Source: Accumulibacter sp. (GTDB taxonomy: Bacteria; Pseudomonadota; Gammaproteobacteria; Burkholderiales; Rhodocyclaceae). Taken from it: a DNA stretch of 64,000 nucleotides. How positions within the stretch are numbered: the first letter of the stretch is position 1; every line of letters starts with the position of its first letter. Under the pieces are notes generated by a model that had not been told where the DNA came from, did not search any database, and worked only from the letters and a program-made list of their open reading frames with translations. The stretch is taken from contig NZ_JAMTDV010000086.1 of assembly GCF_023806565.1 (NCBI RefSeq), positions 19,644-83,643 of the forward strand, in the 5' to 3' direction. This document shows, in pieces, positions 21,497 to 32,178 of this stretch. The translations under genes were made by a program, and so were the position numbers.

Positions 21497-22378
21497 TCAA
21501 ATCCCCAGCGGGCCAAGGTCGAGTTGCCGGTGGCGCATTGCCGGGCACCAGAAATACGCACCCGACTCGGGGCGGGTGAACCGGAACAGGCCATCGACGA
21601 TACTGTCGTCGATTCCGAGCATTCGCCGCAACTGCGCTTCGAATGGATCGAGCGAGGCGGCGAAGGCGACGAACATCAGACCGCCGCGCCCGCCTTCGGT
21701 CCACGGCATGGAGCGGCGCAGGAGGAAGGCCGCCGGCGTGAAGCTCTCCTGCGCCGTGCGTTTGACGTGCGCCGAAGCCGGGGCATCGTCGATCTCGACG
21801 TTATCGACGCGGCGGCGTCCGATGCTGAGATCTTGTTCCGCGGCGGGCATGCTATCGAAACGATCGAAATCATGCTGCCAGCGTTGCACGGCGACGAAGC
21901 TGGAGCCGGCGAGAACGCGCGAATCGTTGCCGACCAGCGCGGTGCGCACTGCATCGTCGTCAGTCGGATTCTCGGTTCCGTCCTCGTAACCGGTGAGATC
22001 GCGGCCGCCATCGTGCAGGAAGGCGTCACGCCTGTCGTCCAAACGAAACGCAGGCAACAGCGCGCCTTCGATCCGCCTAGCACGATGCATGATTTCCCCA
22101 CGCTCGTTGCCGCGCAGCCAGACCCACACCGCTGCCGGTGTCGCCGGCAGTTCCAGTCCGGCTCCGGCGAACGTTGGAAAACCGCGCAGCCCCGGGATAT
22201 CGGCGCCCAGCGCCGAAACCAGAACGCGCCCGAAGCCGACCACCGTTCGTTCGCCGTCGGCGAGCTCGGCAAGCGCGCGCAGGCAGTCCTTCGGGTGCGT
22301 GGCGGGTTTGAGAGAGAAAGTCAGATAACGCGCGACCGGCGGTATCGGGAGAAGGATTCCGGCTTGTGGTGTGTTCAT
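21497..22378 (-). CDS. DyP-type heme peroxidase
   Basis: A 293-residue dye-decolourising peroxidase. The family GxxDG motif is G130-Y-E-D133-G, with D133 the distal acid; the proximal heme ligand is H204 (ASAHVKRT), and FVAVQRWQHD and the PAAFLLRRSMPW block are also typical. There is no signal peptide or Tat motif and no encapsulin gene beside it, so it is probably cytoplasmic. The ATG at 22378 (MNTPQAGILLP) gives the usual start; a longer frame reaches 22444. It is convergent with apaH across 147 bases that hold no gene. Confidence 0.92.
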   Translation of the reverse strand: MNTPQAGILLPIPPVARYLTFSLKPATHPKDCLRALAELADGERTVVGFGRVLVSALGADIPGLRGFPTFAGAGLELPATPAAVWVWLRGNERGEIMHRARRIEGALLPAFRLDDRRDAFLHDGGRDLTGYEDGTENPTDDDAVRTALVGNDSRVLAGSSFVAVQRWQHDFDRFDSMPAAEQDLSIGRRRVDNVEIDDAPASAHVKRTAQESFTPAAFLLRRSMPWTEGGRGGLMFVAFAASLDPFEAQLRRMLGIDDSIVDGLFRFTRPESGAYFWCPAMRHRQLDLGPLGI

Positions 22379-22453
22379 GTTCGGGACAATTCCTTGGTCA
22401 AGAATGGGCGGTGTCATGCCGGCCTGTCTGCCGGCTGTCCACACCGCAGGTTT

Positions 22454-22747
22454 TCAGCAAGTGGCAACTTGGCGGAAACCGGCGCTGCTTCCGATTTCCG
22501 CGGCGTTGCCCTCGCTGCACAGGATGCTGTCGACCCGCGCCATCGAAGGTCCGCGACGTGCCCAGAGGAGCAGCGCTTCAACTGCCTCCGGCGGACCCGA
22601 CACCAGCGCTTCGACGCTGCCGTCGTGGCGGTTGCGCACCCAGCCGGACAGGGCGAGGCGCTGCGCTTCGGCGCAGAACGACCAGCGATAGCCGACGCCC
22701 TGGACGCGGCCCCGGATGCGCAGGGTGCGGCATACTGCTTGCTTCAT
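22454..22747 (-). CDS. acyP: Acylphosphatase
   Basis: Small enzyme (97 residues) that hydrolyses acyl phosphates such as carbamoyl phosphate. The active-site loop GRVQGVGYR (near residue 11) and the catalytic asparagine in [12 protein letters not shown] are intact. The last dozen residues diverge from the family. The ATG at 22747 follows a GGGAGACG ribosome site; a reading from 22849 would add a 34-residue tail with no counterpart. It lies upstream of the DyP gene on the same strand, 75 bases apart. Confidence 0.93.
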
Positions 22748-22999
22748 TTTCGTCTCCCGAGTCGGGAATCCTGGACGGGATGCTGCGCCCGCCACCAATG
22801 CTGGCATAATCCCGGAAACCGCAGCTGGCCGCCACTCCTTCGCGGGCAAGACCGCGCGTGTCGCGCCGTGCGGTTTTGCCGTGCGCGAGAAGATGGCTCT
22901 GCCGGCTGGCGTTCGGTTACGGTTTCCAGGTTAATCGTCGTCGATGAGCAAGAGAATTTCAAGAGGATCCCCTCCGCTGCCTGCGCTTGCCGCACTGCA

Positions 23000-24472
23000 A
23001 TGCTGAAGACATTGCTGCTGCTGCCGCTGCTTGGCGCCGCCCTGTTGGCGCTGTTACCGAGCCGCAGGTTCGATCTGCTGCGCCACGTGGCGAGCGTCGT
23101 CGCGGCGGCCACGCTGCTTTGTGCGGTGCTGTTGCTGGCCGATTTCGATGCGGCGAGCGCCGAGATACAGTTTTTTGAGACACGGCCGTGGAATCCACGC
23201 GTCGGATCGAGTTTCGCACTCGGCGTTGACGGCGTTTCGATGCCGATGCTGCTGCTGGCGACGGTCCTCAGCTTTGTCGCGGTTTTCTCCTCGCGGGGAA
23301 TCCGCAGTGGCGCCAAACTTTATTTTTCCTTGCTGCTGGTTCTCGAGGCGTCATTGCTGATCGTGTTCACCGCCCGGGACTGGTCGCTCTTCTACGTCTG
23401 TTGGGAACTGACGCTGATCCCCCTGTTCTTCCTGATCGACCGCCTAGGAGGAGTCAACAGACACCGCGCTGCGCTCAATTTCGTCCTCTACACGCTGGGT
23501 GGTTCGGTCTTCTTGCTGATTGCACTGTTGTTGCTCTACGACGTCGCTCCGGGACACAGTTTCGCGATGGCCGACATGGCTGCCGGTGGCAGACAGTTGC
23601 CGGTTCGTACGCAAGTTCTCGTCTTTTTCGGCCTGTTGCTGGGTTTTGGCGTCAAGATGCCGATCGTGCCGCTGCATGGCTGGCTACCGCTGGCGCATGT
23701 CGAGGCGCCGAGTCCAATCTCGATCCTGCTCTCGGGAATCCTGCTGAAGATGGGCGCCTACGGCTTGATCCGTGCGGCCGCGACACTGCCGGCTGCGGCT
23801 CTCGCCCTGCAGGACTGGCTGGCGCTGCTCGCGCTGGCCAGTCTGGTCTATGGCGCCGTGCTGGCCTGGCGACAGACCGATCTGAAAGCGATGGTCGCGT
23901 ATTCGTCGATTTCGCACATGGGCGTCGTCCTGCTCGGTGTCGCCGCGCTCAATCAGGCCGGTCTCAGCGGTGCGCTGACGCAAATGGTCGCGCACGGATT
24001 GACGGCCGGACTGCTGTTCCTGTTGATCGGGCTGCTCTACGAGCGCACGCATCGTCGCGACCTGGCGGCTTACGGTTCGCTCAATCGCATCGCGCCGCGT
24101 TTCGCCGTGTTCGTCGTGTTCGCTCTGCTCGCCTCGGTCGGTTTGCCGGGTAGCGCCGGTTTCGTCGCCGAGCTGCAGGTGCTGCTCGCTGCCTACGGTC
24201 GTTGGGGCAGCTGGCTGGTCCTTCTGTCGATCGGCGTTCTCATCTCTGCGGCCTACGCGTTGCGCGCCATCCGCTGCCTGTCGACCGGAGCGGAGCGCGG
24301 CATCCTGGCGCCGGGGGCGGGCGTGATGGCTCTTGCCGATCTGACGCGCAGCGAATGTGCGGCGGCCTGGCTATTGAGTATCGCGACGGTCGGAATCGGT
24401 TGCTATCCGTCGCCGCTGCTGCACGTAATGGCCGCCTCGCTGGTCAAGCTGACGAGACAGTTTGGAGTCTGA
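23000..24472 (+). CDS. NuoM/MrpD-like proton-conducting membrane subunit (first DabB-like subunit)
   Basis: A 490-residue protein of the Proton_antipo_M family with about 14 hydrophobic helices. All the residues of the antiporter-like proton path are present: E136 (CWELTLIPLF), K219 (GFGVKMPIVPLHGWLP), K250 (SGILLKMGAYGLIR), and E391 (LPGSAGFVAE). These resemble NuoM of complex I, but no complex I genes are nearby; the next gene is dabA, starting directly after the stop. By analogy with DabB it probably feeds ion movement to DabA for bicarbonate uptake. ATG 23000 is the first start in frame after a stretch without start codons; no strong ribosome site is visible. The 252 bases upstream to acyP hold no gene and no clear promoter. 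Confidence 0.88.
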   Translation: MLKTLLLLPLLGAALLALLPSRRFDLLRHVASVVAAATLLCAVLLLADFDAASAEIQFFETRPWNPRVGSSFALGVDGVSMPMLLLATVLSFVAVFSSRGIRSGAKLYFSLLLVLEASLLIVFTARDWSLFYVCWELTLIPLFFLIDRLGGVNRHRAALNFVLYTLGGSVFLLIALLLLYDVAPGHSFAMADMAAGGRQLPVRTQVLVFFGLLLGFGVKMPIVPLHGWLPLAHVEAPSPISILLSGILLKMGAYGLIRAAATLPAAALALQDWLALLALASLVYGAVLAWRQTDLKAMVAYSSISHMGVVLLGVAALNQAGLSGALTQMVAHGLTAGLLFLLIGLLYERTHRRDLAAYGSLNRIAPRFAVFVVFALLASVGLPGSAGFVAELQVLLAAYGRWGSWLVLLSIGVLISAAYALRAIRCLSTGAERGILAPGAGVMALADLTRSECAAAWLLSIATVGIGCYPSPLLHVMAASLVKLTRQFGV

Positions 24473-27400
24473 GTGATCGCACCGACGCACACGGCAGGAG
24501 CAGCAGTGGAGTCGCTCGATCGCCTGCAGCTCGTCCGCGTATGCGTCCAGCAGCTTGCCCATTATCTCCCGGCGCAAGCGCCGTTGCGCGACTTCATCCA
24601 TCACAATACGCTGCACGCCTTCCAGCATCTACCTTTTGCCGCTGCCCTCGGCGAAGCGGCGCGCCTGACAGGCGCGCGCCCCTGGCTGCACGAAGACCGT
24701 TGCCGTGAGCTGTTCCGGCAGGGGCGGATCGATACTGACGATCTCGTGGCCGCCTTGCGGCAACTGCCGGATTGCCGCATCGATCAGGTCCTCGTTGCCG
24801 GTGCAGGCGGCGAGGTGCGCCGCGGTGAGGTACTGCTGGCAGCGCTGTTGTACCCGCCTGCCGCCGTGTCAGCAGTTCGCCTGCGCTGGCTAAGCGACGA
24901 GAGCGCCGCTTGCACGGGAGTGCCGAGCGATCTCGACCCGGCCATACGGCGGCGTTTGCTCGCGACTTCCGCGAGCACGAGCGAGGTGAAAGTGGTCGGC
25001 GACCTCTGGGCAGCCGCGCGTGAGTTGCAGGGATCGGTCGCGGCGCCCGCCACCGGTCTTGCCGGGCCGACAGCGGCGAAGGCGGCTGGCCAGTGGCAGG
25101 AAATGCTTTACCGTCTGGGTCGGGACTGCACCTTCGCCGAATTGCTGGCGCAACTGACCGGCGAAGATTTTCGACAGCCGCTGCAAGCGACCTTGATTCG
25201 TCACCTCTCGGCGCAGCTCGACCAGGGTCTGGCCGCCTGGCGGAATCCAGCGGCGGCGCAGGGATTTTATGCCGCCTGGCGATGCAGTGCCGCCGGCGAT
25301 TGGGCTTGGGAGCTCGATGAATTCGCTGGCGCACGACACGACATCGGCGAGCTTCCAGACGACCCCCTGCAGTTGATCGCCGACGAGCTGAGTTCCCTCG
25401 GCGTCGATGAGTCGCACTTTTCCGCGTACCTGCGGCGCTTGCTGATGGAGCTGCCCGGCTGGGCCGGAATGGTGCACTGGCGGGAGTCGCGCGTCAGCGG
25501 CGAGGCTTTTCCGGTCAGCCTGATCGATTTCCTGGCGGTGCGCCTCGTGCTCGAACGTCTGTACGCCGAGCAGCTGGTGCGTCGCGTTTGGGACCTTCCC
25601 TTGCGGGAACTGGGCAATCATTTCGCGAATCACCCGGCCGAACTGTCGGTCAGGTATGCCGTCGGCAGTCGACCATGGCCAGATGAAGTCCTGGACCTGG
25701 TGCGACCGCACCTGTTGACCGCGCAGACAGAGAGCACCTGGCAGTCGCTCGCCGACCGCCTCGCCGATTCGGCGGCGAGCGATTCGCACGTCGCCGGCGA
25801 GGCGGCTGCCTGGCCGCTGTACATGCTGGCGCTGAGGTTGGGTCTGAGCGCTTCCGACCTGCGGGCAATGGGCGCAAGTGGCGCCGAGTCACTGCTCTCC
25901 TGCGCCGCTTCGCTGACCGATGACGAGCGTGGCCTGGTCTGGCTGCTGGCCTACGAACGTCACTATCGACAGCAGATTCTCGCCGCGCTGCGCGCCAACC
26001 ATGGCCGTGCGACAACCCTCGCCGATCGGGCCACGGCGCAGCTCGTGTTCTGCATGGACGATCGTGAGGAGGGAACACGCCGTCATCTCGAAGAGGTCAA
26101 TCCGGCGCTCGAAACGTTCGGTGCTGCCGGCTTCTTCGGCATGCCGATGCTCTGGCAAGGCCTCGACGATGAATCGCCAACCGCTCTCTGCCCGGTCGTC
26201 GTGCGCCCCGTGAATTTCTTGCGCGAGGAGGTGCCAGACGCGCTCGCCACCGTCTACCGCCAGCATCGGCGCCGTCGCGGCTGGCGTCTGGCGTGGCGCG
26301 AAAGACTGCATCAGGGCAGTCGGCGCGGCGGGCTGCAGGCCACACTGCTGATCGCTGCGACGGCACCGATGGCCTTGCTCGCACTGCTGCTGCGAACACT
26401 CGCCCCGGGGCCTCTAGGAAAACTGCTTGGCCGCTGCCGGGAGTCCATCGACAAGTCGGTCGTTGGCAGCTTAGAGGTCACCGCCAGGAGCGACGAAGCG
26501 AGTCGTGCTGCTGACGCCGATGCGCCACGCCGCGGTTTCAGCGAGGACGAACAGGTGGCGCGTGTTGACGGTTTCCTGCGCAGCATCGGTTTGACGAGCA
26601 ACTTCGCACCCTTGGTGCTGATCGTCGGTCACGGTTCCGACAGCCGCAACAACCCCCACCTCGCTGCCTACGACTGTGGCGCCTGTTCCGGGCGGCACGG
26701 TGGCCCGAATGCGCGGGTGTTCGCGACGATTGCCAACCGGCCGGCGGTGCGCGAGCGACTCGCGGGCCAGGGAATCGTCATTCCCGATACGACGCTCTTC
26801 GTCAGCGCCGAGCACAATACCTGCGACGAGAGCTTCGTCTGGTACGATGATGCCCAAGTGCCGGCCAGCCACCGCGAGGCCCTTGCCGCGCTGCGTCGCG
26901 ATTGCGCGACAGCTGCGCGCCGGCATGCCGTCGAGCGCTGCCGTCGCTTCGCCTCGGCGCCTCGCCACCCGTCGCCGCGGGAGGCGCAGCGGCATCTGCT
27001 GGACCGTCGCCACGACATCGCGCAGGCGCGCCCCGAACTCGGGCATGCGACGGTCGCTGCCGCTTTTGTCGGTCGCCGCGCGATGAGTCGCGGCGCCTTC
27101 TTCGATCGACGGGTTTTCCTGATTTCCTATGATCCGCTGCCCGATTGCGAAGGGCGAGTGCTCGAAGCGACGCTGCTGGCGGCGGCGCCGGTCGGCGCCG
27201 GAATCAGCCTCGAGTACTACTTTTCGACGGTCGATAATGACGGGTTTGGTTGTGGCAGCAAGATCATGCACAACCTGACCGGACTGTTCTCGGTGATGCA
27301 GGGAGCCGGATCCGACCTGCGCACCGGTCTGCCGCTGCAAATGGTCGAGATCCATGAGGCGATGCGCTTGCTGGTGGTCGTCGAACAGACCGTCGATGTG

Positions 27401-27658
27401 GTCACCGCCATCTATCAGCGGCAGCCACCACTGCAGGAACTGATCGGCAACGGCTGGATCGTCCTTGCTGCCCAACATCCGGAAACCGGCGAGATCGACC
27501 TATTCGATCCGGCTGAAGGCTGGCAGCCCTGGCAGGACGACCCGGTGAACAAAGGGGAATCGGCCTTGCCGATCGTCGAGTGTTCGTTCGACTGGTTTGC
27601 CGGGCGACGAGAACCCTTGCCGCCGGCCCTGCTGCGGCGCCCGGTAGCTGTCCCATGA
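24473..27658 (+). CDS. dabA: DabA-family (DUF2309) inorganic-carbon accumulation protein
   Basis: A 1061-residue DUF2309 protein. In characterised DAB pumps DabA is a zinc, carbonic-anhydrase-like subunit that acts one way, turning CO2 into bicarbonate with energy from an ion gradient carried by DabB. The expected zinc and active-site residues are present: C527 and D529 (VFCMDDREE), H720 (IVGHGSDS) and C735 (YDCGACSG). The H-to-C spacing of 15 equals that of the Halothiobacillus protein (H524, C539), as I recall it. It starts at GTG 24473, directly after the stop of the first membrane subunit, and its stop overlaps the next subunit by ATGA. It is longer than the roughly 830-residue DabA2 form. 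Confidence 0.93.
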   Translation: MIAPTHTAGAAVESLDRLQLVRVCVQQLAHYLPAQAPLRDFIHHNTLHAFQHLPFAAALGEAARLTGARPWLHEDRCRELFRQGRIDTDDLVAALRQLPDCRIDQVLVAGAGGEVRRGEVLLAALLYPPAAVSAVRLRWLSDESAACTGVPSDLDPAIRRRLLATSASTSEVKVVGDLWAAARELQGSVAAPATGLAGPTAAKAAGQWQEMLYRLGRDCTFAELLAQLTGEDFRQPLQATLIRHLSAQLDQGLAAWRNPAAAQGFYAAWRCSAAGDWAWELDEFAGARHDIGELPDDPLQLIADELSSLGVDESHFSAYLRRLLMELPGWAGMVHWRESRVSGEAFPVSLIDFLAVRLVLERLYAEQLVRRVWDLPLRELGNHFANHPAELSVRYAVGSRPWPDEVLDLVRPHLLTAQTESTWQSLADRLADSAASDSHVAGEAAAWPLYMLALRLGLSASDLRAMGASGAESLLSCAASLTDDERGLVWLLAYERHYRQQILAALRANHGRATTLADRATAQLVFCMDDREEGTRRHLEEVNPALETFGAAGFFGMPMLWQGLDDESPTALCPVVVRPVNFLREEVPDALATVYRQHRRRRGWRLAWRERLHQGSRRGGLQATLLIAATAPMALLALLLRTLAPGPLGKLLGRCRESIDKSVVGSLEVTARSDEASRAADADAPRRGFSEDEQVARVDGFLRSIGLTSNFAPLVLIVGHGSDSRNNPHLAAYDCGACSGRHGGPNARVFATIANRPAVRERLAGQGIVIPDTTLFVSAEHNTCDESFVWYDDAQVPASHREALAALRRDCATAARRHAVERCRRFASAPRHPSPREAQRHLLDRRHDIAQARPELGHATVAAAFVGRRAMSRGAFFDRRVFLISYDPLPDCEGRVLEATLLAAAPVGAGISLEYYFSTVDNDGFGCGSKIMHNLTGLFSVMQGAGSDLRTGLPLQMVEIHEAMRLLVVVEQTVDVVTAIYQRQPPLQELIGNGWIVLAAQHPETGEIDLFDPAEGWQPWQDDPVNKGESALPIVECSFDWFAGRREPLPPALLRRPVAVP

Positions 27659-29199
27659 GCGCGCCGGAGGCCCTGCTGGCCGTGATGCCGGCCGCCAGCC
27701 ACGCGCTCTGGCTGGTGCCGCTGCTGCCCCTGCTGGCGGCCGCGCTGATTGCCATTCGCCTGCTCCTGCGTCCTGGCGGGGACGCGGCCGAGCCGTTGAC
27801 CGCCGGGATCGCGACTGCTTCGCTGCTTGCGGCACTGCTGCTGCTGTTCACCCTGGACCTGTTGGCAATCGGCAGTGCGCTGCCGGTACGACAGGAGTTT
27901 GGCGACTGGCTGCGAATCGGCGCCGTTCCGGTTCGCCTGTCCTTCGTTGCCGACGCGTACAGCTTGCCGATGGCGACGCTGGTAACCTTGATCGGCTGGA
28001 TTGCGCTGCGTTTTTCCGCGACGTATCTGCACCGCGAAATCGGATTCCACCGCTTTTTCTTCGGCATGACCTTGTTTCTTGGCGGCATGCTGCTGATCGT
28101 TCTTTCCCGCAACGCCGTACTGGCCTTTGTCGGCTGGGAACTGGCCGGCGTCAGTTCCTGGCTGCTCATCGCGTACGCCTGGGAGCGCCCCCTCGCGACG
28201 GGCAACGCACTGTTCGTTTTCTTGACCAACCGGGTGGGCGACGCCGGTTTCATGCTCGGCATCGGCCTCGCCGTGTGGTCGGTCGGGACCGTCGAGTGGT
28301 CCGGGTTGGGCGGTGACGGCGGCCTTGCCAGGGTCACTGCGCGCCTGTTGTCGATCGGCTTTGTGCTGGCCGCGCTGGTCAAGTCGGCGCAGCTTCCGTT
28401 CACCCCGTGGATCGGACGAGCGCTGGAGGGACCGACGCCGTCGTCGGCGATCTTTTACGGATCGCTGATGGTGCATGCCGGCATCTATCTGCTCTGTCGC
28501 CTGCAGGGTCTGCTGGCACAGGTGCCGGATCTGATGCTGCTGCTCGCGGTTGTCGGTCTGTTGACCGCTGCGTACGGCAGCCTCTGCGCCTTGGTACAGA
28601 GCGACGTCAAGTCGGCGCTGATTTTTTCGACCGTGACCCAGGTCGGTCTGATGTTTTTCTGCTGCGGCCTTGGACTGTTCTGGCTCGCGGCCTGCCATGC
28701 CGGCCTGCATGCCGCCTGGCGCGCCTATCAGTTTCTGTTGGCTCCGGCGTATATGCACCTGGTACGTCGGCCGGCAGCGCCAGCACCACGCTGGCTGAGC
28801 GCGCGACGCTGGTGGTACACTGCCGCGCTGCAGCGCTTCTGGATCGAGGCACTGGGCAACACCCTGCTGGCGCGCCCGACGCTGGCTCTCGGCCGGGACG
28901 TGCGCGCGCTCGACGAGCGCTTCATCGATCCGCTGGTCGGAGAACCGCTCGTCGAGCGTTCTGCAGAGGGCGACACGGCCGACGAGTTGATCCGTGGTCA
29001 CGGCCTCGCCGGTCGCGCGCTCTTCCGCTTCGCGGATCGAATGCAGCGACTCGAGAGCTCTCTCCTGCTCAGCGGCGACGGCTCGATGAAGACTACGGTG
29101 GAGCGCGCCGCGCACTACGCCGATGCGGTGGAGTCGCTGCTCGAACAACCGCGCTATCTGATGCTGATGGTGATGGCAACCTTGGTGGTGATCCTGTGA
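27655..29199 (+). CDS. NuoL-like membrane subunit, internally shortened (second DabB-like subunit)
   Basis: A 514-residue NuoL/MrpA/DabB-type protein. The front part is normal: E162 (GWELAGVSSWLL), TNRVGDAGF, K243 (LVKSAQLPFTPWI), and a histidine (H274) where many relatives have lysine or threonine in the next helix. H352-A-A-W-R356-A-Y-Q-F-L corresponds to the NuoL HAFFKALLFL helix, with arginine replacing lysine. After that the usual next few helices are missing. The protein goes straight to a soluble segment (residues about 370-500) that resembles the end of NuoL (ARPTLALG, DERFIDPLVG, DRMQRLESS) and a final membrane helix. ATG 27655 overlaps dabA by 4 bases. Confidence 0.85.
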   Translation: MSAPEALLAVMPAASHALWLVPLLPLLAAALIAIRLLLRPGGDAAEPLTAGIATASLLAALLLLFTLDLLAIGSALPVRQEFGDWLRIGAVPVRLSFVADAYSLPMATLVTLIGWIALRFSATYLHREIGFHRFFFGMTLFLGGMLLIVLSRNAVLAFVGWELAGVSSWLLIAYAWERPLATGNALFVFLTNRVGDAGFMLGIGLAVWSVGTVEWSGLGGDGGLARVTARLLSIGFVLAALVKSAQLPFTPWIGRALEGPTPSSAIFYGSLMVHAGIYLLCRLQGLLAQVPDLMLLLAVVGLLTAAYGSLCALVQSDVKSALIFSTVTQVGLMFFCCGLGLFWLAACHAGLHAAWRAYQFLLAPAYMHLVRRPAAPAPRWLSARRWWYTAALQRFWIEALGNTLLARPTLALGRDVRALDERFIDPLVGEPLVERSAEGDTADELIRGHGLAGRALFRFADRMQRLESSLLLSGDGSMKTTVERAAHYADAVESLLEQPRYLMLMVMATLVVIL

Positions 29200-30695
29200 G
29201 CGAAATCTCTTGGGCGACGCAGGCCGGCTACCCCTTGCTGGCGACCTTGCAGTGTCTGCCGCTCGCAGCCACGATGTTGCTGCTGATCATGCGCCAGCAC
29301 GAGCAGGCGCTACGTCTCGGACGCCTGTTCGCCATCGCCGAACTGGCCGTGGCAATCGATCTCTACGGGCGCATCGATGTGGCGAACGGCAACCTGCAGT
29401 TCGCGGAGCGTCTTGACCTGTTTGCCTATCACGCGGCGGCCGACGGGATCAGCGTGCTTTTCATTCTGCTCACGGCGCTGCTCGGCGTGCTGCTGTCGTT
29501 CTATGGCATGGCGCGTCAGCAGATATCACCGGTACACCTGCTCGGCGTGCTGTTGGTCATCGAATCGTCGCAGATGACGATGCTCACGACGATGAACCTG
29601 CTGTGGTTTGCCGCTGCTTCCGCGCTGCAGCTCACGCTCGTCGGCTACCTGCTCTGGCGCTGGGCGTCGGCGCGTGAAGAGAATCTCGCTTTGTCGCGCT
29701 TCCTGCAGTATCAGCTTTTCGGCTGGTGCCTGTTTCTTGCCGGGGCGGTCGTCATCGTCTGGAGTCATGCCGATGTCGTCGGCGGGCGCTGGAGTTTCGA
29801 CCTCCTCGATCTGCTGCACACGCCGCAGATCGACAAGTACCAGTCGGCGGCGTTCTATCTGCTCTTTTATGGCCTGGCGATTCGCACGCCACTTTTTCCG
29901 CTGCACGGTTGGTTACCCAACTCCGCCGGCTACGGCCTGATCGCCGTCGGTCCGGTGCTCCTGCTCGGCGTCAAGGTCGGTGTTTATGGCATGGCGCGCT
30001 TTCTCTTGCCGCTGACGGCGGAAGCGGTGCTGATCTGGCAGTCCTATGTGGTGGCTTTCGCCATGATTGGCGTCTTTTTCGCCGCCAGCATGGCTTTTCG
30101 CCAGGCCAATCTTCGCCGGCTGATGGCTTTCGCCGTGGTCAGTCATACGAGCCTGATCGTCATCGGCCTGTTCACGTTGCATCCGGCTGGTCTGCAAGGG
30201 GCGCTGCTGTTGGCGGTCAATTTCGGTCTGGCAATCACGGTGATGTTGCTGATGGTTGGCTATGTGTACCGCCGCACCGGAACCACGGCGCTCGACCGAC
30301 TCGGCGGTCTTTTCGACCGCGTTCCGTTCATCGCTCTCGCTTTTCTGATCGGCGGCCTGGCGCTGCTCGGAATGCCGGGAACGCCGGGATTCGACGCCGT
30401 TCACCTGGTCCTCGAAGCGTCGATCGATACCTTCGGCGCGCTGCCGACGATCGCCACTGCGCTTGGCAACGTCGCCGCCGCCGGTTTCCTGCTGTGGGCC
30501 TTTCAGCGCGCTTTCCTGGCACCACGACCGCGCGATCTGCCGGCGGCAAGGATCGCCCGCACGGGCGCGATGGAATATTTCGTCGGCGGCGCGACGCTGA
30601 TCGTCCTGCTGGCTGCCGGTTTCTACCCGGAGCCGTGGCTGCAACTGACCGACAGCGCGACGCAGGCTCTTGCCGCCTATTTCCAGCATGACTGA
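29196..30695 (+). CDS. Divergent antiporter-like membrane subunit (third DabB-like subunit)
   Basis: A 499-residue multi-span protein that aligns by eye with NuoM-type subunits, for example in PLFPLHGWLP, LGVKVGVYGMAR and MPGTPGF. Key charged residues differ from its sisters. The helix-5 glutamate is missing (FAAASALQLTL, serine 142 at that place), the helix-7 lysine is arginine (R230 in LAIRTPLFP), K260 is kept, and the late glutamate is valine 402 with an aspartate (D400) two residues earlier. It may be a structural or regulatory subunit rather than a pump. The start is GTG 29196, overlapping the previous stop (GTGA); the longer open frame from 28407 is the previous gene in another frame. 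Confidence 0.82.
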   Translation: MSEISWATQAGYPLLATLQCLPLAATMLLLIMRQHEQALRLGRLFAIAELAVAIDLYGRIDVANGNLQFAERLDLFAYHAAADGISVLFILLTALLGVLLSFYGMARQQISPVHLLGVLLVIESSQMTMLTTMNLLWFAAASALQLTLVGYLLWRWASAREENLALSRFLQYQLFGWCLFLAGAVVIVWSHADVVGGRWSFDLLDLLHTPQIDKYQSAAFYLLFYGLAIRTPLFPLHGWLPNSAGYGLIAVGPVLLLGVKVGVYGMARFLLPLTAEAVLIWQSYVVAFAMIGVFFAASMAFRQANLRRLMAFAVVSHTSLIVIGLFTLHPAGLQGALLLAVNFGLAITVMLLMVGYVYRRTGTTALDRLGGLFDRVPFIALAFLIGGLALLGMPGTPGFDAVHLVLEASIDTFGALPTIATALGNVAAAGFLLWAFQRAFLAPRPRDLPAARIARTGAMEYFVGGATLIVLLAAGFYPEPWLQLTDSATQALAAYFQHD

Positions 30696-32178
30696 ACTGG
30701 CCGCTTATCCGCTGCTCAGTACTCTGCTCGCGTTGCCCTTGCTCGGCGCGCTGTTGACGGCATGGGCCCGGCGTGCCGCATGGGTTCAGTGGATCGCGCT
30801 TGGCGCCACGGGTCTGACCTTGCTCTGCTCGATGCTGGTGGTCGCTGCATTCGATCGGGGCGACACCGGTTTCCAGTTACTGGATGCGGCCCCCTGGATA
30901 GCCGGAGTGAGTGTCCGGTATCTGGTCGGGGTCGATGGGATATCCCTGCTCTTCCTGCCGGCGACCAGCCTGCTCTTCTGCGCAACGGTCGTTGCCAGTT
31001 GGCGGATCAGGGCGGACGCGGCGCCGCGTGGGGTGTATTTCGCGCTGCTGCTTCTTTTCGAAGCAGCTACCCTTGGTGTCTTCTGTGCGCTGGACACGAT
31101 TCTGTTCTTCGCCTGCTGGGAGTTCACGCTGCTGCCGTTGTACTTCCTGGTCAGCCTGTGGGGTGTCGGTGCCGGGCGACAGGCGGCAGCCGTCCATTAC
31201 TTCCTGGTGATGCTGACCGCCGGCGTGCCGCTGCTGTTCGGCCTGTTGGCACTTGCCTTCGGGCATGGGGATGGGGCTACGCCGGTTTTTGACCTGCCAA
31301 CACTGCTGGCGACGCCGCTGCCCGAGCGAAAGCAGTATCTGGTATTCCTGCTCCTGCTTGCCGGTTTCGGTGTGAAGGTACCGCTGGTGCCCGTGCACAC
31401 CTGGCTTCCGTCGCTGGCGATGGCGGCGCCGGCGGCGGTCACTTCGCTACTGGTCGGGCTGAAGATCGGCGCCTATGGGCTGATCCGCGTCGCCATCCCT
31501 TTGGCGCCACTCGCCGCGCGCGAGTTGCACTGGCTGCTCGCCGGCTTCGGTACCGTCGCCATCCTCTATGGTGGCGTCGCCGCCCTGGTGCACGGCAATT
31601 TGCGTGGCGTACTGGCCTACTCCAGCCTGTCGCACGTCGGGCTGGTGCTTCTCGGCCTCGCTTCCTTCTCGGTCTCTGCTTTGCAGGGTGCGCTGTTGCA
31701 ACTGCTGAACTTCAGCGTCGCTGCTGGCGGCGGCTTCTTGCTGCTGTCTTTCCTGCAGCGGCGCACGGCGTCCACCGACATCGCCCGGCTTGGCGGCGTG
31801 ATGCATCGCATGCCGCTGCTCGCGGGTTTCTTCCTGCTGTTCGGTCTGGCGGGTATCGGCCTGCCCGGAACCAGTGGCTTTCCTGGTGAATTGCTGATCG
31901 TCGTCGCCACGCTGCATAGCCATACCGGTGCGGGTCTCGCGGCGTTGTTCGGCACGGTGCTCGCGGCGGCGAGTTTTCTGGGCCCATTCCGGCAGGCTTT
32001 TCTCGGGCCGCTGCGGAATCCGGACGTCTCTGCGGCCGACGATCTGCTCGCGCGTGAGCTAGTCTGCCTGTCGTTGCCGGCATTGCTGATCGTCGTCCTC
32101 GGCGTCTATCCGCTCCCGTTGCTCGAATTTCTGCGACCGACCGCCGAGGCGTGGGTGGCAGCGCTCGCCGGGTTGTAG
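30688..32178 (+). CDS. NuoM-like proton-conducting membrane subunit (fourth DabB-like subunit)
   Basis: A 496-residue NuoM-type protein with about 14 hydrophobic helices. The proton-path residues are intact: E145 (ACWEFTLLPLY), K230 (GFGVKVPLVPVHTWLP), K259 (VGLKIGAYGLIR) and E401 (LPGTSGFPGE). The histidine usual in the QMVAHGL helix of its sisters is asparagine here (LLNFSVAAG). ATG 30688 overlaps the preceding gene by 8 bases. It ends the five-gene run; the next gene starts 272 bases on, behind a promoter-like pair. Confidence 0.86.
   Translation: MTELAAYPLLSTLLALPLLGALLTAWARRAAWVQWIALGATGLTLLCSMLVVAAFDRGDTGFQLLDAAPWIAGVSVRYLVGVDGISLLFLPATSLLFCATVVASWRIRADAAPRGVYFALLLLFEAATLGVFCALDTILFFACWEFTLLPLYFLVSLWGVGAGRQAAAVHYFLVMLTAGVPLLFGLLALAFGHGDGATPVFDLPTLLATPLPERKQYLVFLLLLAGFGVKVPLVPVHTWLPSLAMAAPAAVTSLLVGLKIGAYGLIRVAIPLAPLAARELHWLLAGFGTVAILYGGVAALVHGNLRGVLAYSSLSHVGLVLLGLASFSVSALQGALLQLLNFSVAAGGGFLLLSFLQRRTASTDIARLGGVMHRMPLLAGFFLLFGLAGIGLPGTSGFPGELLIVVATLHSHTGAGLAALFGTVLAAASFLGPFRQAFLGPLRNPDVSAADDLLARELVCLSLPALLIVVLGVYPLPLLEFLRPTAEAWVAALAGL

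Follow-up and report, generated by a model that had tools for sequence, protein, structure and literature searches.

We analyzed a 64,000-nucleotide stretch (hereafter, the window) of an Accumulibacter sp. genome (contig NZ_JAMTDV010000086.1, positions 19,644 to 83,643) and, within it, a cluster of five genes at 23000-32178 on the plus strand. These encode a DabA protein and four antiporter-like membrane proteins in the order M1-DabA-L-M2-M3. With a probability that we put at roughly 0.55, the cluster represents a branch of its own in the DAC/DAB family, made of five subunits: a CO2 hydrator driven by membrane potential in which the channel is spread over several subunits. Conserved gene order, retention of all parts after dispersal, gene fusion and matched occurrence make it very likely, as far as sequences can tell, that the five proteins are one functional set, and likely that they form one complex.

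Gene order, dispersal and fusion of the five genes

The genes are packed edge to edge. M1 (23000..24472, plus strand, as are all cluster features below) is a NuoM-like antiporter subunit of 490 residues (PF00361, 228.6 bits; TIGR01972, 458.5 bits, above the cut-off), for which position 23000 is the likeliest, unproven start. It is followed without a gap by a DabA of the long type (24473..27658, GTG start at 24473), a 1061-residue zinc protein resembling beta-carbonic anhydrases (PF10070, 789.2 bits). An ATGA junction leads to L (27655..29199, ATG start at 27655), a truncated NuoL/DabB-like subunit of 514 residues (PF00361, 121.3 bits, and PF00662), and a GTGA junction to M2 (29196..30695, GTG start at 29196), a divergent NuoM-like subunit of 499 residues (PF00361, 117.7 bits). 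M2 overlaps by 8 bases with M3 (30688..32178, ATG start at 30688), a NuoM-like antiporter subunit of 496 residues (PF00361, 177.3 bits; TIGR01972, 415.8 bits). In Pfam, the PF00361 match spans positions 1-293 in M1 and M3, 18-277 in M2 and only 2-220 of 294 in L. M2 passes the NuoM model TIGR01972 just above its cut-off (273.2 versus 263.8 bits), and L scores below the NuoL cut-offs. When Escherichia coli NuoA-N were used as tblastn queries (E <= 1e-3), NuoA-K had no match in the window; only NuoL, NuoM and NuoN matched, all inside the cluster. The cluster is thus accompanied in the window by none of the NuoA-K or redox subunits of complex I; a full nuoA-N set resides elsewhere in the same genome, on contig C102. 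Coordinates, Pfam and tblastn matches thereby confirm what the original prediction, made from the bare sequence, had said about the five genes, their junctions and identities, and the absence of nuoA-K from the window.

DabA of this kind is present in 26 of 28 genomes of the same genus, the window's included. Our surveys covered 398 Pseudomonadota and 198 Bacteroidota genomes plus a few plasmid loci; gene neighbourhoods were fetched for part of the matches across the family, class and phylum, and genes were classed by hidden Markov models built from the subunits. For a census we took nonduplicate loci with DabA scoring >1000 bits against the model of this type (n=67, the window's locus included), having excluded L075, in which DabA lies in two frames, and the duplicates L111, L173, L145, L164 and L146. 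The order M1-DabA-L-M2-M3 was found in 53 loci, counting as intact those with partial M1 or M3 at contig ends (e.g. L115 and L069) and L112, with M3 in two frames. Nine loci are cut by contig ends, their visible part fitting the five-gene order (L014 has M2 in two frames), and five are rearranged, including L189, in which neither M1 nor L adjoins DabA. The synteny of DUF2309 with several PF00361 genes, suggested by the original prediction as a check, is thus borne out. Among the carriers are metagenome-assembled genomes of Magnetococcales (L016, L020 and L022), Ca. Magnetaquicoccus (L017) and a gammaproteobacterial metagenome-assembled genome (L015).

Each of the six rearranged genomes (G213, G344, G219, G475, G658 and G662; G658 was fetched after the census and stands outside the 67 loci) retains all five parts. 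In G213 and G344, DabA is followed by a single protein of about 1045 residues that joins L to M2 (L::M2). In one fusion frame (L129), residues 6-514 match L and residues 544-1031 match M2; the second fusion is in L144. M1 and M3 stand apart from the fusion gene: in G213 they occupy two other contigs, and in G344 M3 is on a different contig and M1 shares that of the fusion gene at a distance of about 9 kb. G219 keeps M1-L-M2-M3 together, with DabA on a separate contig, and in G475 the set is distributed over three places (M1-DabA, L, and M2 with M3). G658 and G662 share the order M1-M3-L-M2 with DabA on another contig; the M1 frame of G662 is only partial, as it lies at a contig end. L is therefore not adjacent to DabA in G219, G475, G658 and G662. 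The DabA-less operon of G219 is followed by a gene for a TerC-like membrane protein (assigned by eye; L168, 13583-14386); a TerC gene is also found near DabA on plasmid L099.

The occurrence of the parts is matched as well. This DabA (>700 bits) and M2 (E <= 1e-95) are found in an identical set of 36 of the 398 Pseudomonadota genomes, where DabA gene pieces were read together and the best two or three candidates per genome were scored, so that a second copy might have been missed. Weaker DabA matches, without M2, occur in 31 further genomes of the sample. Since carriers are related, the number of independent cases is smaller than 36; tallied by genus, M2 is present in 14 of 213.

These data have to be weighed against another explanation, namely that DabA and L make an ordinary two-subunit DAB pump, the three NuoM-like proteins being merely co-transcribed and serving another purpose, for instance proton/cation exchange to balance pH. 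M1 and M3 do appear to be full channels, the Bacteroidota relatives that we fetched (L175-L179) showed no more than DabA and L in the vicinity, and pairs suffice in known systems, as taken up below. The L::M2 fusion, the identical occurrence of this DabA type and M2 in the 398-genome sample, and the retention of all parts after dispersal argue against it, as does the loss from L of hydrophobic segments that Bacteroidota L keeps. On balance we consider this explanation unlikely.

Residues and architecture of the subunits

For the antiporter-like subunits and for a recount at the DabA finger, residues were counted in stop-to-stop frames trimmed by script, with the window genome (L050) and the L075 pieces included and the two fusion proteins split by script into their L and M2 parts. 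DabA matches DabA2 of the DAB2 complex (DabA2-DabB2 of Halothiobacillus neapolitanus, PDB 9rd0, chain A) by sequence with E 2.1e-65, and the two systems share the zinc ligands, the Asp-Arg dyad and a NuoL-like membrane partner. C527, a zinc ligand, and the dyad D529/R531 are encoded at 26051..26065, and the other zinc ligands, H720 and C735, within 26630..26677. All of these residues, which correspond to C351, D353, R355, H524 and C539 of DabA2, are identical in 66 of 66 relatives and kept in the window. As in DAC/DAB systems, therefore, we find a PF10070 DabA with a Cys2His zinc site and an Asp-Arg dyad and, in the 53 intact loci, a NuoL-like gene directly after it.

Other positions set this DabA apart from DabA2. 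According to the available text of the DAB2 study, a change of finger residue Glu444 abolished activity, and Leu658 of DabA2 stands in for the transition-state Gln of beta-carbonic anhydrases (PMC13144422). The predicted finger-like hydrophobic hairpin of the window's DabA (residues 621-659, 26333..26449; modelled helices 621-643 and 645-659) has no Glu444 equivalent. In relatives of this type the column holds Glu in 0 of 66 cases (Ala in 27, Leu in 13, Val in 7, Asp in 4, Thr in 4, others in the rest), so the finger Glu that marks the DAB2 subtype is absent, a result upheld by a recount. All 20 DAB2-like rows of the alignment keep this Glu, as do all 36 of the remaining outside rows after removal of three misfiled rows; it is also absent from seven Bacteroidota rows and three odd rows. 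The misfiled rows (L169 and L171, which are Bacteroidota duplicates, and the broken L075) had been placed in group D1, comprising DAB1-like and other non-DAB2 rows, and are the sole exceptions of that group at Glu444 and Leu658. The Leu658 position is occupied by H858 (codon 27044..27046), which is His in 66 of 66 relatives, whereas the 20 DAB2-like rows all have Leu there. The Ser356 position of DabA2 is Glu in 66 of 66 relatives.

L is the probable partner of DabA. By hydropathy, its residues ~370-495 (28762..29139) form no hydrophobic segment where NuoL and DabB have further transmembrane (TM) helices. After the TM11 anchor, zero or one hydrophobic segment is seen in 66 of 66 L rows, versus at least three in 54 of 54 DabB rows; in the window's L, the part from residue 348 to residue 496 is free of them. 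The Bacteroidota L proteins have five or six (seven rows, six of them distinct, as L018 and L169 are one gene counted twice). L thus lacks the NuoL-like TM12-15 region of DabB that belongs to the DAB2 subtype, unlike DabB2, which retains 15 TM helices and is without the TM5 Glu. That NuoL Glu is kept in L (66 of 66; Ile in DabB2), along with the TM7 Lys, Arg175 and Asp178, and in all 66 rows Tyr occupies the H254 position and Arg the K342 position. The AlphaFold2 model of L, made for L alone and not for the L::M2 fusion, has a mean predicted local distance difference test score (pLDDT) of 80.3, with confidence falling beyond about residue 420; the structure matches listed for it are mostly NuoL-type chains, over about 350-380 columns.

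The NuoM-like subunits are not equivalent to one another. NuoM channel residues E144, K234 and K265 are present in all 67 M1 rows and all 60 M3 rows, and E407 in 66 of 67 and 59 of 60, respectively, with one gap in each. Judging by these residues, M1 and M3 resemble working proton channels. In M2, both channel Glu residues are lost and K234 is replaced by Arg in 62 of 62 rows, as a recount confirmed, with K265 kept. Instead, M2 has a charged patch of its own, D400/H403/E407 (30393..30416; Asp in 55, His in 62 and Glu in 60 of 62 rows), on the segment bearing NuoM E407; E. coli NuoM has hydrophobic residues or Pro at these positions, and so do M1 and M3, going by their commonest residues.

The identity of L and the number of membrane subunits bear on a further possibility. 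Cyanobacterial NDH-1MS (NdhD3/NdhF3/CupA) consists of NuoL and NuoM paralogues plus a CO2-hydrating subunit, and differs from the present cluster in being redox driven, in having a complex I core and in its unrelated hydrating subunit. DabA, L and the NuoM paralogues might likewise replace NuoL and NuoM on the NuoA-K/N core of the resident complex I and make a redox-driven CO2 hydrator. The composition of the cluster, with NuoL and NuoM paralogues and a carbonic-anhydrase-like subunit, resembles that of NDH-1MS. The host has the full nuoA-N set, and 10 of the 11 other carriers with PF00361 genes listed have three further adjacent ones (G517 has two), taken to be nuoL/M/N. Complex I is common in such bacteria, so its presence alongside the cluster says little. 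The antiporter-like subunits number four where only two would need replacing, the C-terminal block of NuoL is missing from L, and the score of L against the NdhF3 model TIGR01960 of NDH-1MS (115.2 bits) is far below the cut-off of 588.7, all of which makes such a replacement decidedly improbable. NDH-1MS itself is named a ferredoxin-coupled vectorial carbonic anhydrase in the available text of PMC13144422.

Phylogeny, known relatives and genomic surroundings

Two trees were computed by a quick method with Shimodaira-Hasegawa-like approximate likelihood ratio test (SH-aLRT) support only, no bootstrap, and with long-branch warnings. In the DabA tree (53 rows), the present type (20 rows) forms one clade (SH-aLRT 99), with a group of five Bacteroidota rows and three odd loci (99) beside it; DAB1-like and DAB2-like rows are separate. 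In the antiporter tree (72 rows), M1, M2, M3 and L each form one clade. L falls together with Bacteroidota L and two odd loci (100); DabB is the sister of this group (93), and NuoL comes next (97). M1, M2 and M3 group with NuoM (99), and M2 pairs with M3 (97). Two of the odd loci, L190 (65-5716) and L121 (2750-8759, minus strand), consist of three genes, coding for DabA, an L without any hydrophobic segment after TM11, and a weakly NuoM-like protein. They are possibly independent or intermediate forms.

The near relatives from Bacteroidota (L175-L179 and L018) are DabA-L pairs that have the His at the Leu658 position, lack the finger Glu and keep the TM5 Glu of L; they differ in the two genes found and in the hydrophobic segments of their L. 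DAB1-like DACs, as we call them after DAB1 in the available text of PMC13144422, also have a long DabA of about 1050 residues and a NuoL-like partner, but represent a separate DabA clade that keeps the finger Glu. No NuoM gene was found beside DAB1-like DabA on the same strand, except for a 20-bit fragment match in L163; a separate nuo operon is located near L104. We tried the length of DabA as a hallmark of the five-gene type and rejected it, since DAB1-like loci have a long DabA without same-strand NuoM neighbours.

NuoM beside the DabA family, together with the idea of multi-ion complexes, has been in print since 2017 (PMC5700660). In the available text of that COGNAT study, clade C has ybcC (COG3002) upstream of nuoL, frequently with NuoM (COG1008) and SulP neighbours. 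It shares with the present cluster a DabA upstream of a NuoL-like gene, the NuoM neighbours and the multi-ion idea, but the five-gene order, the subunit classes, the fusion and any residue analysis do not figure in that text. A search of open-licence literature returned no title or abstract describing the five-gene set. The 2017 study also ties the number of membrane subunits to the number of ions moved (PMC5700660, available text); the complex would then be an ion pump driven by an exergonic DabA reaction and exporting several ions, one per membrane subunit. We regard this as very improbable, because DabA2 is carbonic-anhydrase-like and its hydration apparently needs the membrane potential (PMC13144422, available text), and because the zinc site is kept in this DabA type.

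Several further observations concern the surroundings of the cluster and other DabA loci. Immediately upstream in the window (21500-22849, minus strand) lie genes for a DyP-type peroxidase and an acylphosphatase, and downstream an acyltransferase-3 and a methionyl-tRNA synthetase are encoded. The host genome also codes for antiporter subunits of Mrp-like and hydrogenase-4-like kinds (the labels are ours). The Mrp A/D models listed all score far below their cut-offs for the cluster; small Mrp genes were not searched for. A hydrogenase-4-like membrane cluster is located outside the window, ~45 kb downstream of M3 (G000, contig C86, about 96.5-104 kb; L094, 6574-13918, minus strand). It includes two PF00361 frames of 717 and 512 residues and other hyf-like frames named by eye. 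In the relatives L062, L064 and L072, genes resembling these two PF00361 proteins precede the five-gene cluster by a few kb; L071 has just one of them there. On Nitrobacter hamburgensis plasmid 1 (L101, 1-10966), genes for a hypothetical protein, DabA and a P-II-like protein make up a unit that is present in two copies, whose small proteins share accessions, beside a form I RuBisCO and carboxysome operon. Two actinobacterial plasmids typed as mobilizable (L099 and L100) carry DabA-DabB pairs in the vicinity of DUF6671 and regulator genes; L099 additionally carries a carbonic anhydrase gene.

Proposed mechanism and metabolic role

The original prediction of a larger complex, with DabA on an array of antiporter-like subunits, stands insofar as gene order, co-retention and the L::M2 fusion argue for one functional set and probably one complex; it fails as a picture of DAB2 with pumps added. 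PF00361 is indeed found in all four membrane subunits, but four equal pumps are unlikely given that M2 lost the standard channel residues. The suggested bicarbonate uptake needs correcting, as the available text on DAB2 indicates CO2 hydration apparently driven by membrane potential and not bicarbonate import (PMC13144422).

In the reading that we prefer, DabA would be a cytoplasmic, zinc-dependent carbonic-anhydrase-like subunit seated on L, hydrating CO2 to bicarbonate only while protons enter down the membrane potential. With the finger Glu and the last hydrophobic block of L gone, the parts of a DAB2-type outer half-channel have been removed and the DabA-DabB interface must differ from that in DAB2. 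M2 is then the natural candidate for a replacement: as the fusion partner of L, with altered charged residues, it probably completes or gates the outer proton path. M1 and M3 would be intact proton channels of the same array, and extra proton paths per CO2 would permit a steeper bicarbonate gradient or finer control. The sequences show the gene set and its conservation, the fusion, the altered residues and the loss of hydrophobic segments from L; the single complex, its direction, the role of M2 and the stoichiometry are what we infer, direction and substrate being carried over from DAB2 by analogy.

A number of points weigh against this reading. DAB2 functions with two subunits (PMC13144422, available text), and MpsAB complements as a pair (PMC6689103, available text). 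No experiment on any member of our five-gene set was found. The DAB2 mechanism is not simply transferable, given that the finger Glu is missing and that His occupies the Leu658 position. An acidic residue does occur somewhere in finger helix 621-643 in 10 of 66 relatives (four of them the Asp at the Glu444 column). The AlphaFold2 model of DabA (mean pLDDT 75.4) has no PDB structural match at E <= 0.001, and 9rd0 is absent among the 50 structural matches listed for it, though found by sequence. The matched occurrence of DabA and M2 is subject to the missed second copies mentioned above. Finally, a RuBisCO match is present in only 2 of 36 carriers (G000 and G719) versus 115 of 362 other genomes (Fisher p 0.0004; the profile used, PF00016, also covers RuBisCO-like proteins), which speaks against a general role of the system in the Calvin cycle. 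This statistic is confounded by lineage, as carriers crowd into few families.

The host's own RuBisCO matches NF010002/PRK13475 with 906 bits, and we take it to be form II. The Magnetococcales relatives presumably rely on the reductive tricarboxylic acid cycle. Other roles for bicarbonate, such as anaplerosis, would fit equally.

Antiporter arrays are known from redox machines (complex I and membrane hydrogenases) and from ion exchangers (Mrp). Tentatively, the present set might be a third kind, in which several proton channels serve a non-redox reaction, the hydration of CO2. The truncated L and M2 would then share the DAB channel, and M1 and M3 would add two intact proton paths that determine a multi-proton ratio. 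Work on complex I has long asked by what means antiporter-like subunits link proton flow to chemistry at a distance; if our reading is true, the question could be approached more simply in a five-subunit relative without redox parts, in which one channel is altered and several are intact. The finding also suggests that membrane-driven CO2 hydrators differ in build and, since carriers without RuBisCO use one, that their role may extend beyond concentrating CO2 for the Calvin cycle.

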